From Spirochaetaceae bacterium (GTDB lineage Bacteria; Spirochaetota; Spirochaetia; DSM-27196; SLAA01): a stretch of 38,300 nt of DNA. Below are positions 16,195-25,820 of this stretch, one piece after another. A model generated the notes under the pieces. That model saw only the letters and a list, made by a program, of their open reading frames with translations. It made no database searches and had not been told where the DNA came from. Position 1 is the stretch's first letter. Each line of letters opens with the position of its first letter. The stretch is taken from positions 1 through 38,300 of the forward strand of contig PWQX01000097.1 of the NCBI GenBank assembly GCA_003556605.1, written 5' to 3'. The position numbers and the translations under genes are program-made.

Positions 16195-17655
16195 ATGTCT
16201 TGGGATTACAGCGTATTCTGGCACGAAGCAATCAAACAACTGCACGATGAAGTCTCGGAACAAGAGTTCGATATGTGGTTTAATGGTATCGAATATGCCG
16301 AATCCGGCGACAACTGTATCATCGTGCGTGTGCCCTCGAGCTTCTACCGAGACCAGGTTAAGCAGCGCTACCTTACACGGATACAAAACAAGCTCCTTGA
16401 GCTTTCAGGAATAGCGCTTGCTCTGGAGTTCCGTGTTGGGCGGCCGAGCTGCGAGTATGTGGCTGCGGCAAATGGGGTAAAACCCCGGCAGGTTTCGTCG
16501 GAAAACCCTATTTCCTCGGTATCCGTGCCACCCGGCGGCAGCCCGGTTTCCGCCGGCCGGGCTTCGCGCTACGATGAAGGTGTCGCGTCCTTAGGTGTAA
16601 GCGCGCGCAAATCGCCGCATCAACAACTGAGACAAGAGTATACCTTCGAGAACTTCGTTGTTGGCAATAACAACTCGTTTGCGGCAAATGCCGCCATTGC
16701 AATCGCTAAGAATCCCGGAACCGGCTACAACCCGTGTCTTATTTACGGCGGGGTCGGTCTCGGTAAGACGCATCTCATCCAGGCTATCGGCAACTCCGTG
16801 CACCGCGAATTCGCAAACCTCAAGATTGTATACGTGACAATGGAAAGCTTCACCAACGACTTCATTCAGTCGATTCGTGAAAAGCGTATGCAGAACTTCA
16901 AGAACAAGTACCGGTATGCTGATGTGTTGTTGATCGACGACATTCATTTCCTGCAAAAGAAGCCGGAGACGCAAGAAGAGCTCTTTCACACCTTCAACGC
17001 GCTGTATGACGCCAACAAGCAGATGGTATTCACTTGTGATCGGCCGGTTTCGGAAATCCGTGACCTAACCGACCGCCTGCGTAGTCGATTCGAGCGTGGG
17101 TTAAATGTCGACCTGCAACCGCCCTCCTACGAAACCCGCTACGCAATCCTGCGTAAAAAAACCGAACGTGCCCAGATTGATATTCCCGAGGAAGTAATCG
17201 AGCTGATCTGTAACAACGTAACCACCAACGTGCGCGACCTCGAGGCCGCACTGACAAAACTCATGGCATACGCTGAGCTGGTGAACAAGAGAATCACTTT
17301 TGAGGTTGCTCAGCAACAACTCAAAGACATGTTCGTCAGCCCACAGCAATTCAACATCACCGTAGACGTGATCCAGCGCACGATAGCAGATTACTTCGGC
17401 CTTTCGATGCAAGAGTTGAAGGGCAAGAAGCGCACCAAAGTTATTGCCTTTCCGCGTCAGGTTGCAATGTACATCTGCCGCGAGTTGACCGAGCTTTCAA
17501 CTACCGAAGTTGGGCTTGAGTTTGGAGGGCGCGATCACACTACCGTTATGTACGCATGCCAACGCATCGAGAATCGCATGCGTACCGACCCAACGCTCGA
17601 GCCGACCATTCAATCGCTCATTCGAACCATAAGAGACCAAGGTACTAAGCAATGA
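16195..17655 (+). CDS. dnaA: Chromosomal replication initiator DnaA
   Basis: This is the replication initiator AAA+ ATPase. The track ORF is 519 residues, but domain I clearly begins at MSWDYSVFWHEAIKQL, so ATG 16195 (486 residues) is the likely start; no good Shine-Dalgarno is seen. Domains in order are: I (about 1-85, DnaB/partner contact), a variable Pro/Ser/Gly-rich domain II, and III with YTFENFVVGNNNSFA, Walker A GGVGLGKTH, Walker B VLLIDDIHFL and LRSRFERGL. Domain IV is the DNA-binding helix-turn-helix with the signature GGRDHTTVMYACQRI. It recognises TTATCCACA-like boxes, seen both after this gene and after jag. The strand switch to gyrB lies immediately upstream. Confidence 0.97.
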   Translation: MSWDYSVFWHEAIKQLHDEVSEQEFDMWFNGIEYAESGDNCIIVRVPSSFYRDQVKQRYLTRIQNKLLELSGIALALEFRVGRPSCEYVAAANGVKPRQVSSENPISSVSVPPGGSPVSAGRASRYDEGVASLGVSARKSPHQQLRQEYTFENFVVGNNNSFAANAAIAIAKNPGTGYNPCLIYGGVGLGKTHLIQAIGNSVHREFANLKIVYVTMESFTNDFIQSIREKRMQNFKNKYRYADVLLIDDIHFLQKKPETQEELFHTFNALYDANKQMVFTCDRPVSEIRDLTDRLRSRFERGLNVDLQPPSYETRYAILRKKTERAQIDIPEEVIELICNNVTTNVRDLEAALTKLMAYAELVNKRITFEVAQQQLKDMFVSPQQFNITVDVIQRTIADYFGLSMQELKGKKRTKVIAFPRQVAMYICRELTELSTTEVGLEFGGRDHTTVMYACQRIENRMRTDPTLEPTIQSLIRTIRDQGTKQ

Positions 17656-17694: not shown

Positions 17695-17778
17695 TGTGGA
17701 AAACCATGGGCCACTGTGTAATTGTGGAATTCCGACTCCACAAAGCAATAGAGTTATTCAGCCGTTAAGTTATACCCA
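17695..17778. promoter_or_regulatory. Cluster of degenerate DnaA boxes downstream of dnaA
   Basis: In the 229-bp dnaA-dnaN gap several 9-mers resemble TTATCCACA: TGTGGAAAA (17695-17703, reverse), TGTGGAATT (17723-17731, reverse), GACTCCACA (17734-17742) and TTATACCCA (17770-17778). An AT-rich ATATATATAATG tract follows at 17838-17850. The dnaA-dnaN gap is a common oriC location, but no box is a perfect match. Confidence 0.5.
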
Positions 17779-17819
17779 GGACGGTACTTAGGGCGTGTTT
17801 GCACATCCTAGCTTACCCT

Positions 17820-17848
17820 ATGACTAAAACGACTAGAATATATATAAT
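17820..17848 (+). promoter_or_regulatory. dnaN promoter
   Basis: A perfect -10 TATAAT (17843-17848) has ATGACT (17820-17825, 4 of 6 matches to TTGACA) 17 bp upstream. GGAGCAGGAG precedes the dnaN ATG at 17885. Confidence 0.65.
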
Positions 17849-17884: not shown

Positions 17885-18808
17885 ATGAAGTTCACAGTTG
17901 ACCGCGAAACCTTGATGAAAGAGATTGGAGTAGCATCGGAAATCATTTCCAGCAAGAATGCGCTTTCGGTACTTGCAAATGTATTACTATGGGCCGAGGA
18001 AGGTAACCTCGGTATACGTGCTACCGATCTCAAGGTCAGCTTTGAAACCCAGATACCGGTTGAAGTACAGACGCCCGGGAGAACTACCGTATACTGTGAC
18101 AAACTGCTCAGTATTTTACGCTCTCTTCCTGCCGGCGACGTTGAGCTTGAACACGCCCACGACCACATTACGATCACACCTAAAGAACGCGCGGCGGATT
18201 TCCGACTTCGCAGCATCCCGGCGGAAAAGTATCCCGAGATTCAGCTTACAAGTACCATATCGTATTGGGATCTCCCGCAAGCGGAATTCATCGAGATGAT
18301 TACCCAAACAGCATTTGCGGTTTCGGACGATGAAACGCGGTACTTTATGAATGGCGTGTTTTTTGAGCAGGTCGAGGGTGATCTCGTGATGGTTGCAACC
18401 GACGGGCGGCGGTTGTCGTACATTAAGAAAACCCCTGAGAGCGAGCCGCCTGATTTTGCGGGCGTTATTGTGCCGCCGAAGGTCCTTAATTTAGTCAAAA
18501 AACTCGCCTCGGGCGAAGGCACTGTTTCACTGGCTATTACCGAAAAACATCTATTTATCGAGTTCGAGAATCAAAAGCTGTCATCAGCCTTAATTGAAGG
18601 TCAGTTTCCGAACTACCGCCGGGTCATTCCTGAAAAGCAGGATCATGTGCTTACCGTTGACCGCGCACAGCTATCAGAGGCGCTCAAACGCGTTTCGCTG
18701 CTGGTGGATAAGTCACGTCGCGTTTATCTGATGCTTGCTGAAGATTCCGTCACCCTGAGTTGCGACGAATCCGATATCGGAACCGCAAGCGAGCAGTTGG
18801 TATGTTAA
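17885..18808 (+). CDS. dnaN: DNA polymerase III beta clamp DnaN, interrupted by an in-frame TAA
   Basis: The product is the sliding clamp that tethers DNA polymerase III and binds many partners through a C-terminal pocket. The first 307 codons read as a normal beta clamp: MKFTVDRETL start, ATDLKVSFET, SDDETRYFMNGVFF, VATDGRRLSYIKK, GQFPNYRRVIP, and LLVDKSRRVYLML. At codon 308 (18806-18808) there is a TAA, preceded by SEQLVC. The reading frame then continues, without any shift, for 58 conserved codons to a proper C-terminus. The truncated product would lack the last strands of domain III, including half of the partner-binding pocket, and dnaN is normally essential. Sequencing error, nonsense mutation, stop readthrough or a second dnaN copy elsewhere are all possible. 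Confidence 0.9.
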   Translation: MKFTVDRETLMKEIGVASEIISSKNALSVLANVLLWAEEGNLGIRATDLKVSFETQIPVEVQTPGRTTVYCDKLLSILRSLPAGDVELEHAHDHITITPKERAADFRLRSIPAEKYPEIQLTSTISYWDLPQAEFIEMITQTAFAVSDDETRYFMNGVFFEQVEGDLVMVATDGRRLSYIKKTPESEPPDFAGVIVPPKVLNLVKKLASGEGTVSLAITEKHLFIEFENQKLSSALIEGQFPNYRRVIPEKQDHVLTVDRAQLSEALKRVSLLVDKSRRVYLMLAEDSVTLSCDESDIGTASEQLVC

Positions 18809-23254: not shown

Positions 23255-24145
23255 ATGACACATGAGTTTGAAGGTCGAACCGAGCAAGAAGCCATCGACA
23301 CTGCGGTGGTTGCGCTCGGTCTAGAGCAGGATCAGTTTGACATTGAATTGGTCGAGACGCATAAGTCGGGATTTCTGAATCTCAACAAACGCGTAACAAT
23401 TCGCGTACATATCCACGACACCGCGGAGGCGCTTGCTAAACCCGGCGAAGACAGCCGGCAAGCTGCGAAGCAGGCTCCCGAAATAAGCGCCGCTTACGCC
23501 GACACCGGTTTTGACCCCACACAAGTGGCTCGCCGGCATCAAAACGCTTCGCCTGAGAACGACTTCGAGCACGGGATGGTTGATTTTGTGCAGAATACGC
23601 TCGAGAAAATGGGTTATACCGGCGAGGTGGTGATTGCTTATCGCGAAACCGGGAAGCTTGGGCTGCGGATAGACTCTGAACACTCGGGCATGTTGATCGG
23701 CCGCAAAGGGCGTACGCTCGATGCACTGCAGCTTGTCGCTAATGTGGTAGCCGGGCGCCTCGACGGCGGTGACACTAAGATCATCCTCGATACCGAAGGG
23801 TATCGCTCGAGGCGCGAAGAAGGGCTGGTCCGGCTGGCGGAGAAGGTCGGCGACGAAGTCAAACGCAGCCGCCGGTCACAGCTATTGGCTCCGATGAACC
23901 CCTTTGAGCGGCGACTGATACACACCACGCTCAATAATGTCGAAGAAATTGAAACCGCAAGCGAAGGCGAGGGACTGTACAAGCAGGTGCGTGTTTCGTA
24001 TCGCGGCGGTGGCGGCGGACACGATGACGGTGGCGGGAGGCCTGGTAACGACACGGTTGGTAACAAGGCGGGCCGCTCGGATAACGGAAACCGGGGTGGT
24101 TCGCGTCGCGGGGCGCGCGGCCGGGGGCGGCGGCGTACGCGCTAA
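23255..24145 (+). CDS. jag: Jag (KhpB/EloR-like) RNA-binding protein
   Basis: This 296-residue protein has the Jag order. The Jag-N domain (about 1-55, EFEGRTEQEAIDTAVVALGL with SGFLNLNKR) is followed by a spacer, a KH domain (about 105-180, LIGRKGRTLDALQLVANVV), and an R3H domain (about 195-250, PMNPFERRLIHTTLNNVEEIETAS). A Gly/Arg/Asp-rich tail ends RGARGRGRRRTR. KhpB/EloR proteins bind RNA and affect cell elongation in Gram-positive bacteria. The RGG-like tail should add RNA affinity. It lies 14 bp after yidC, the usual partner gene. Confidence 0.93.
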   Translation: MTHEFEGRTEQEAIDTAVVALGLEQDQFDIELVETHKSGFLNLNKRVTIRVHIHDTAEALAKPGEDSRQAAKQAPEISAAYADTGFDPTQVARRHQNASPENDFEHGMVDFVQNTLEKMGYTGEVVIAYRETGKLGLRIDSEHSGMLIGRKGRTLDALQLVANVVAGRLDGGDTKIILDTEGYRSRREEGLVRLAEKVGDEVKRSRRSQLLAPMNPFERRLIHTTLNNVEEIETASEGEGLYKQVRVSYRGGGGGHDDGGGRPGNDTVGNKAGRSDNGNRGGSRRGARGRGRRRTR

Positions 24146-24183
24146 TTTCGCCCCCTTACAACGCGGCCCAGCTAAAGCGCTGT

Positions 24184-24255
24184 ACAGGTTACATATACAG
24201 CTGTCGTACTGATCGGAATTGAAAATAGCGGGATTTACTTATGTGAGTAACCTGT
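24184..24255. repeat. 9-bp inverted repeat ACAGGTTAC / GTAACCTGT
   Basis: ACAGGTTAC (24184-24192) and its exact reverse complement GTAACCTGT (24247-24255) flank 54 bp in the jag-gcvT gap. The right arm overlaps a DnaA-box-like TGTGGAAAA. It may be an origin-associated protein site or a long-range hairpin. Confidence 0.5.
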
Positions 24256-24495
24256 GGAAAACTTCAGAGTGTTCGCCAAGCTGCTGCACGATTTTGCGGC
24301 TCTACAATCGTTTCACAAAAGCATTAGGTGTACCGCTAATAAAAAATATCTATTTACTTTACTATCGTGGTACACAGTGCTAGGATTCGGCACGTAAACA
24401 TCTGTTAATCACCTATTCGGTTCACCGACTCAGCTACGCGACACCGTGCTGCTAATGGGGCATTCCAGCTGAGCTTGTGTATAAATTGTGGATAA
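24253..24495. other. oriC: Candidate oriC: DnaA boxes and AT-rich tract between jag and gcvT
   Basis: The 568-bp gap 24146-24713 contains TGTGGAAAA (24253-24261), TGTGTATAA (24476-24484) and the perfect reverse DnaA box TGTGGATAA (24487-24495). The last two are 11 bp apart, i.e. one helical turn. Between them lies an AT-rich tract (24336-24366, AATAAAAAATATCTATTTAC) that could be the unwinding element. It is the only perfect TTATCCACA match I found in intergenic DNA here. The dnaA-dnaN gap is the rival candidate. The rest of the gap shows no gene. Confidence 0.55.
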
Positions 24496-24700
24496 AACTG
24501 GGAGAACCCGCAACCTCCTTGTGAGTATTTGCCCGAGGAACTCCAACTCCTCAAACTGTCAAGACTATAACCCCATTTTTTTGAAATAGCACCGCATTAT
24601 CGCAGCGCGTGCCACAGTAGTAGCAGCTGTTTCGGGAAGGCATGTCCTTGAGATATGCTTCGACGGCAATTTTGGTTTGTGTGTCCTCCCAAACCTAGAG

Positions 24701-24716
24701 TATACTGCCAGGCATG
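24701..24716 (+). promoter_or_regulatory. gcvT -10 element directly at the start codon
   Basis: TATACT (24701-24706) ends 7 bp before the gcvT ATG (24714), with a weak TTGTGT (24677-24682) 18 bp upstream. Transcription would start at or just before the ATG, and there is no properly spaced Shine-Dalgarno. This suggests a leaderless or near-leaderless mRNA. Confidence 0.5.
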
Positions 24717-25820
24717 GAAACACACTTAAAGCACACCCCGTTAAGGGAATGGCACGTTCGGCACGGTGCTAGGATGGTACCGTTTGCCGGCTGGGAGATG
24801 CCTGTTCACTACGCGAGTGGGGCCTTGCAAGAGCACCGTTTGGTCCGCACCAGTGCCGGGATCTTCGACATCTCGCATATGGGCCAGCTTGAAGTCCGCG
24901 GCACCGACACCGTTGCATACCTCGAACAGATCATTTCCAGCACCATGGAGACACTGGGGGTAGGAAACTCGCGCTATGGGCTGATTTGCGACACCTCCGG
25001 TGCTGTGCTTGATGATCTGTTCGTGTATCGTCTGCCTGACAAATGGTGGATCGTGGTGAATGCTGCCAATACTGACTCCGACTATGCGTGGTTTACGCAG
25101 CATCTTAACAGTTATATGGTAGAGGTGAGCAATGTCTCGGACCAAACTGCAATGCTTGCGGTGCAGGGCCCGGCGGCGATTGAAATCATGGACGAGGTTT
25201 CCGGCGGCGCAGTTTCGCCGATCGCACGCTTTGCAGCGGCTGAATGCAGCATCGCCGGCGTGGTGTGTCTGGTTGGTCGTACCGGCTACACCGGCGAGGA
25301 CGGAGTTGAGCTGTTCTTGGACGCCGGCGATGCCCAAACGGTCTGGGACGCGATTCTCACCAGTGAAGTCGGCCGCCGGGCCGACCTCGCGCCGATTGGG
25401 CTGGCCGCACGCGACAGCCTCCGCTTTGAACCGGGTTTCGCGTTGTACGGCCACGAAATCAGCCGTGAAGTGACCCCGGTGGAAGCACGCCTCACCTGGG
25501 CTTGCGACCTCCAGCGCGACTTCATTGGTCGTGATGCCATCGCGGCGCGCAAGGAGGCCGGGCCGCAGCGAAAGCTCTGCACTTTCACCCTCACCGACCG
25601 CGGTGTGCCTCGCGAAGGATGCGAGATCTACGCCGCCGGTGCGAAGATCGGATCGGTAGTCACCGGGATGTTTGCCCCTACCGTTGAGGCATACGCGGGA
25701 AACGCGTTTGTCGACAGTGCATATGCCAAGGTGGGCACTGAGTTCGAGGTTGACATCCGCGGCAAGCGCAAAGCCGCTGTGGTCGTCAAGCGCCCGCTGT
25801 ACAAGCCGGCGTACAAATAG
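24714..25820 (+). CDS. gcvT: Glycine cleavage system T protein (aminomethyltransferase)
   Basis: This 368-residue enzyme transfers the methylene group from the aminomethyl-lipoyl H protein to tetrahydrofolate, releasing ammonia. Family motifs from the start are TPLREWHVRHGARMVPFAGWEMPVHY, GIFDISHMGQLEVRG, YGLICDTSGAVLDDLFVYRL, GRTGYTGEDGVELF, GLAARDSLRFEPGFALYGHE, and the C-terminal domain. Alignment to the family begins at METHLKHTPL, which supports the ATG at 24714. It is the first gene of the gcvT-H-PA-PB operon, preceded by the possible origin region. Confidence 0.96.
   Translation: METHLKHTPLREWHVRHGARMVPFAGWEMPVHYASGALQEHRLVRTSAGIFDISHMGQLEVRGTDTVAYLEQIISSTMETLGVGNSRYGLICDTSGAVLDDLFVYRLPDKWWIVVNAANTDSDYAWFTQHLNSYMVEVSNVSDQTAMLAVQGPAAIEIMDEVSGGAVSPIARFAAAECSIAGVVCLVGRTGYTGEDGVELFLDAGDAQTVWDAILTSEVGRRADLAPIGLAARDSLRFEPGFALYGHEISREVTPVEARLTWACDLQRDFIGRDAIAARKEAGPQRKLCTFTLTDRGVPREGCEIYAAGAKIGSVVTGMFAPTVEAYAGNAFVDSAYAKVGTEFEVDIRGKRKAAVVVKRPLYKPAYK

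Follow-up and report, generated by a model that had tools for sequence, protein, structure and literature searches.

The locus raises the question of what a set of DnaA boxes does in the intergenic gap behind jag, at the far end of the gene cluster that begins with dnaA. The preliminary description of this DNA took the gap for a candidate oriC. The window, meaning the whole stretch of 38,300 nucleotides analysed, is a complete contig from a 3.88-Mb assembly of 296 contigs. The corresponding region was taken from about 50 relatives, mostly MAGs, and DnaA boxes were called from the consensus with up to two mismatches. The array behind jag is genuine, and relatives conserve DnaA boxes at this place, a short way from the origin. 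On balance we favour reading it as an oriC-proximal DnaA-binding array that is distinct from the site where the duplex first opens.

The genes gyrA and gyrB lie on the minus strand and are followed on the plus strand by dnaA, dnaN, recF, dciA, rpmH, rnpA, yidC and jag. Then come the gap, gcvT and the rest of the gcv genes. The gap spans positions 24146-24713 (568 bp), from the jag stop codon to the ATG of gcvT, and thus stands at the end of the cluster where it had been placed. The genes that frame the argument are:

16195..17655, plus strand: dnaA, with a conserved ATG start at 16195 in an open reading frame that opens at TTG 16096
23255..24145, plus strand: jag, last gene of the dnaA-dnaN-recF-dciA-rpmH-rnpA-yidC-jag cluster
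24714..25820, plus strand: gcvT, the gene next after the gap

Several DnaA boxes, outside any unwinding region, form a candidate DnaA-box cluster (DBC) in this intergenic gap. The elements located in it are:

24242..24261, minus strand: tandem DnaA-box pair 1, TTACTCACA (24242-24250) and TTTTCCACA (24253-24261) in 11-bp register, aligned in all five species of the genus
24476..24495, minus strand: tandem DnaA-box pair 2, TTATACACA (24476-24484) and TTATCCACA (24487-24495) in 11-bp register, kept in the congeners
24520..24528, minus strand: weak fifth box, TGTGAGTAT on the plus strand; the five-species alignment has TGTGGAAA(C/G) or TGTGGAGAG here in the congeners
about 24337..24365, no strand: A/T-rich tract between the pairs, with an (A)AAAACTCTATT-like core that recurs in the alignment of congeners
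24394..24426, no strand: 33-bp block GTAAACATCTGTTAATCACCTATTCGGTTCACC with no assigned function, conserved in the five species of the genus; each of their genomes has a single copy, at this place
24536..24563, no strand: conserved blocks AGGAACTCCAAC (24536-24547) and CTGTCAAG (24556-24563) in the alignment of congeners
24184-24192 and 24247-24255, no strand: 9-bp inverted repeat ACAGGTTAC/GTAACCTGT, conserved in none of four congeners

The perfect box reported earlier, TTATCCACA, is the sole exact DnaA-box match in the window, and its neighbour TTATACACA, 11 bp off, forms a phased pair with it. The third box, TTTTCCACA, and the A/T tract of about 30 bp were likewise recovered. A fourth box, TTACTCACA, had escaped notice; it lies 11 bp from the third and completes a second pair. 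The two pairs are 234 bp apart, both are helically phased and all boxes are on the minus strand. The exact tandem TTATNCACA-N2-TTATNCACA occurs a single time in the 3.88-Mb assembly, inside this gap. The motif TTATNCACANNTTATNCACA also has one copy in the assembly, with none for the reversed-pattern control.

The five-species alignment of the genus retains both pairs, the weak fifth box and three more conserved blocks. The 33-bp block was not found in the other families searched; might it be a binding site for some other protein? The inverted repeat exists as described, and was discarded as a part of the element because the four congeners lack it in the alignment. The gap has no RNA family match at gathering score, and consensus scans for terminators and promoters in it did no better than chance.

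Comparison of the gap among relatives bears out its conservation. At least one minus-strand 11-bp pair is present in 29 of 32 post-jag gaps, which represent eight families of the order. These 32 gaps hold 50 pairs on the minus strand and 0 on the plus strand, for a shuffle expectation of 0. The commonest layout has two pairs 150-265 bp apart, the distance reaching 439 in G014. Family f5 and part of f3 (G017) retain single boxes and miss the strict pair. That 9-mers cluster by chance in AT-rich DNA would fit the abundance of single degenerate boxes, of which TTATNCACA alone accounts for 50 across the assembly of the window. Such an accident is nevertheless a negligible prospect for the paired array: register, strand and place are all exact and conserved across the eight families, and 2000 dinucleotide shuffles of the gap produced no 11-bp pair at all.

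Exact tandem pairs were also searched in whole assemblies. The 51 genomes have 25 of them (none for the reversed pattern), of which 10 follow jag, 12 precede dnaA and 3 are at other sites. The latter lie at 75 kb in G009 (G009:C1:75191), at 46 kb from dnaA in G013 (G013:C1:3239947) and on a short contig of G027 (G027:C8:1606), where another pair follows about 80 bp further on. Their sequence makes these three sites candidates for additional DnaA-box clusters.

In most genomes of the order jag is followed by gcvT or gcvH, and pair 2 precedes gcvT by about 220 bp. The array could accordingly be thought to mediate a DnaA-responsive control of transcription, acting on the gcv operon that follows or on read-through from jag, and in B. 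subtilis the trmE-noc genes are apparently repressed by DnaA (PMC4447404). The neighbourhood of the array in other genomes makes this improbable. An S-adenosylhomocysteine (SAH)-hydrolase-like gene follows it in G050. In G049 and G060 the next gene is MraY/WecA-like and is read from the other strand toward jag, so that convergent genes enclose the array; these gene names were taken from the translations. Conversely, G052 has gcvH directly after jag and lacks the array. Since the array is kept in front of unrelated and even convergent genes, it is not simply an element of a gcv promoter; it is not tied to the gcv operon, and G049, G050 and G060 rule out gcv regulation as a general explanation.

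A separate feature of the same intergenic end is the motif TATACT at 24701-24706, 7 bp 5' of the gcvT ATG and kept in all five species of the genus of the window. Its closeness to the ATG suggests that the gcvT mRNA is leaderless or nearly so.

Whether the gap is itself the origin depends on where the duplex opens. The basal unwinding system (BUS) is built of a DnaA box followed by DnaA-trios, with a published spacer peak of 10-13 bp (PMC8287927). The dnaA-dnaN gap of most relatives follows that design, with a DnaA box, a 12-bp spacer and at least three DnaA-trios: it ends in a TTATCCACA-like box, the spacer, CTACTACTACTATTACTA and an AT stretch. A scan of 47 dnaA-dnaN gaps found the signature of box, 12-bp spacer, CTA repeats and AT stretch in 34, its box being on the plus strand in all but G051. 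The same scan gave no match beside the DnaA boxes of the 32 post-jag gaps. The weak matches of G051 (dnaA-dnaN, minus strand) and of G047 (gyrB-dnaA) look like chance hits. Two elements were located in the dnaA-dnaN gap of the window:

17695..17703, minus strand: DnaA box TTTTCCACA, in the end of the gap nearer to dnaA
17797..17862, plus strand: candidate BUS with a weak box GTTTGCACA (17797-17805), a 12-bp spacer, the trios CTA-TGA-CTA-AAA-CGA-CTA-GAA (17818-17838) and an AT-rich stretch to about 17862

This BUS departs from the published form in being degenerate in the genus of the window, where its box carries two mismatches and the trios are imperfect; it is near perfect in most sister families. 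The length of the dnaA-dnaN gap also varies, being 1.4-1.6 kb in the genus of G017 and G036 versus about 160-450 bp elsewhere.

The GC skew leans against the proposal of an origin behind jag. In the window the cumulative minimum falls at 17628, in the 3' end of dnaA. Among five relatives chosen for their longer contigs, four (G009, G007, G016 and G015) have the minimum 1.1-1.6 kb past the dnaA start. Across the post-jag gap the skew at four-fold sites of plus-strand genes continues without a step, although this is a weak test as the skew is small and gene-dependent here. In the fifth relative, G013, the cumulative minimum lies 29.5 kb after dnaA, probably hinting at a recent rearrangement near its origin.

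The BUS scan, the skew minima and the lack of a skew step behind jag together place the opening at dnaA-dnaN. It is thus most likely that the duplex opens at the BUS of that gap, about 6.5 kb to the left of the array. The degenerate state of the BUS leaves some doubt for the genus of the window, in which the opening site is possibly weaker or shifted. That the post-jag gap is oriC itself and the opening site, at least in this genus, would agree with that degeneracy, with the additional conserved blocks of the gap and with its combination of an AT-rich centre and the strongest DnaA boxes of the window. It appears unlikely all the same, given that the gap lacks the DnaA-trio element and the skew minimum, and that a fork starting there would meet transcription of the dnaA-jag operon head-on. 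What stands of the candidate oriC is the conserved DnaA-box locus near the origin; its designation as the site of opening is doubtful.

A second array bears on the role of the first. An array of the same build occurs upstream of dnaA in two families of the order and in deeper branches: it is present in f4, f8 and f12 and in the deeper f15, f17, f18, f19 and f21. It is missing in f1, f2, f3, f5, f6 and most of f7, most of these genomes keeping the post-jag array, and the window itself carries no box pair between gyrB and dnaA. Neither array exists in some deep lineages. A simple swap, in which a genome would carry the upstream or the post-jag array and never both, was rejected because f4 and f8 carry the two. 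The genome set amounts to a natural experiment: some families have arrays at both ends of the cluster (as in G015), others at one end (G009 and G016, behind jag), and others have none. In a FastTree phylogeny of GyrA, GyrB, DnaA and DnaN, several deep nodes of which are weak, the upstream array looks the older and the post-jag array the younger.

Two roles fit the post-jag array: holding or titration of DnaA near oriC, or service as the far arm of a bipartite oriC. In the second case the upstream array would have been duplicated to the other end of the dnaA-jag cluster and its first copy lost in several families, and DnaA bound behind jag would loop to the BUS. Bipartite origins that loop out dnaA are known from H. 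pylori and B. subtilis, with oriC1/incAB upstream of the gene and oriC2/incC, including the DUE, downstream (PMC8235120). They share with the locus studied here a DnaA-trio element between dnaA and dnaN and a second array of boxes. The boxes of H. pylori oriC1 are on the same strand and 2 bp apart, as in the window (PMC8235120; same orientation in PMC4285127). The upstream and post-jag arrays also have a common strand, 11-bp register and spacing between pairs (mostly 150-265 bp), and it is this shared build, together with the presence of the post-jag array in most genomes of the families that lack the upstream one, that keeps a dispersed bipartite origin as a tentative alternative.

Other properties of the locus speak against such an arm. 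In the known cases the clusters are parted by the single gene dnaA, while the second array of the window is not upstream of dnaA: it lies downstream past jag, about 6.5 kb from the dnaA-dnaN gap with seven genes in between. The upstream and post-jag arrays have no similarity beyond the boxes. Their local alignments barely beat shuffles, and the marginal gain is due to the boxes themselves, so that homology of the two arrays outside the boxes was rejected. The absence of both arrays from some deep lineages is a further difficulty. If the array were nonetheless a displaced second arm, the origin would work through a DNA loop that spans about 6.5 kb and seven genes. The distribution of arrays makes it testable whether a second cluster of DnaA boxes needs to lie beside dnaA or can work at a distance of several kilobases.

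Titration is favoured over the bipartite arm because about 6.5 kb exceeds the distance in known bipartite origins. The sequences establish that the boxes exist, that they are conserved, where they lie and that they do not depend on which gene follows; we infer that the array binds DnaA, and it probably helps to control replication. The protein would bind the two minus-strand tandem pairs cooperatively, since the 2-bp gap of the 11-bp register sets neighbouring DnaA molecules on one face of the helix; this box spacing has been described as the best one for a DnaA filament, and the boxes of H. pylori oriC1 follow it (PMC8235120). The DnaA-bound pairs would be separated by about 234 bp with an AT-rich centre, and the duplex would open at the dnaA-dnaN BUS about 6.5 kb away. 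The fork passes the array within seconds of initiation, and the doubled array would then take up DnaA close to the new origins and restrain re-initiation.

The closest known counterparts are found in B. subtilis, namely the DBCs of Okumura 2012 (reviewed in PMC5295017) and a parallel in position: in vitro, DnaA binds strongly to a region 'upstream of trmE; downstream of jag' that has 4 sites, with a Kd of 0.33 uM for ATP-DnaA (PMC4447404). This region, number 5 on the in vitro map of DnaA binding, resembles the spirochaete locus in being a cluster in the intergenic region right after jag, a few kb from oriC and with few boxes (4 sites there, 4-5 here). Deletion of six B. subtilis DnaA-box clusters leads to early initiation (PMC5295017). 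The surroundings differ: jag is upstream of dnaA in B. subtilis, whereas the rpmH-jag segment is downstream of dciA here. DnaA binding was measured in B. subtilis, while the spirochaete array is known from its sequence. A DnaA array after jag is now found in two distant phyla. The spirochaete one is missing from deeper branches of the class and therefore looks to have been acquired independently. The open-access literature, which covers the field incompletely, yielded no paper on the post-jag array, nor one in which a spirochaete origin of this type had been mapped.

Two further observations concern the window outside the gap. The gene dnaN, coding for the sliding clamp, has an in-frame TAA at 18806-18808, after residue 307. 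The frame runs on past it into the conserved carboxyl-terminal part, and the congeners have CGG or GAG at that codon. No second dnaN was found in the assembly of the window, and the TAA could be a sequence error or a genuine nonsense codon. At the contig end, positions 30-391 match a group II intron domain (RF00029) beside three tRNA genes.
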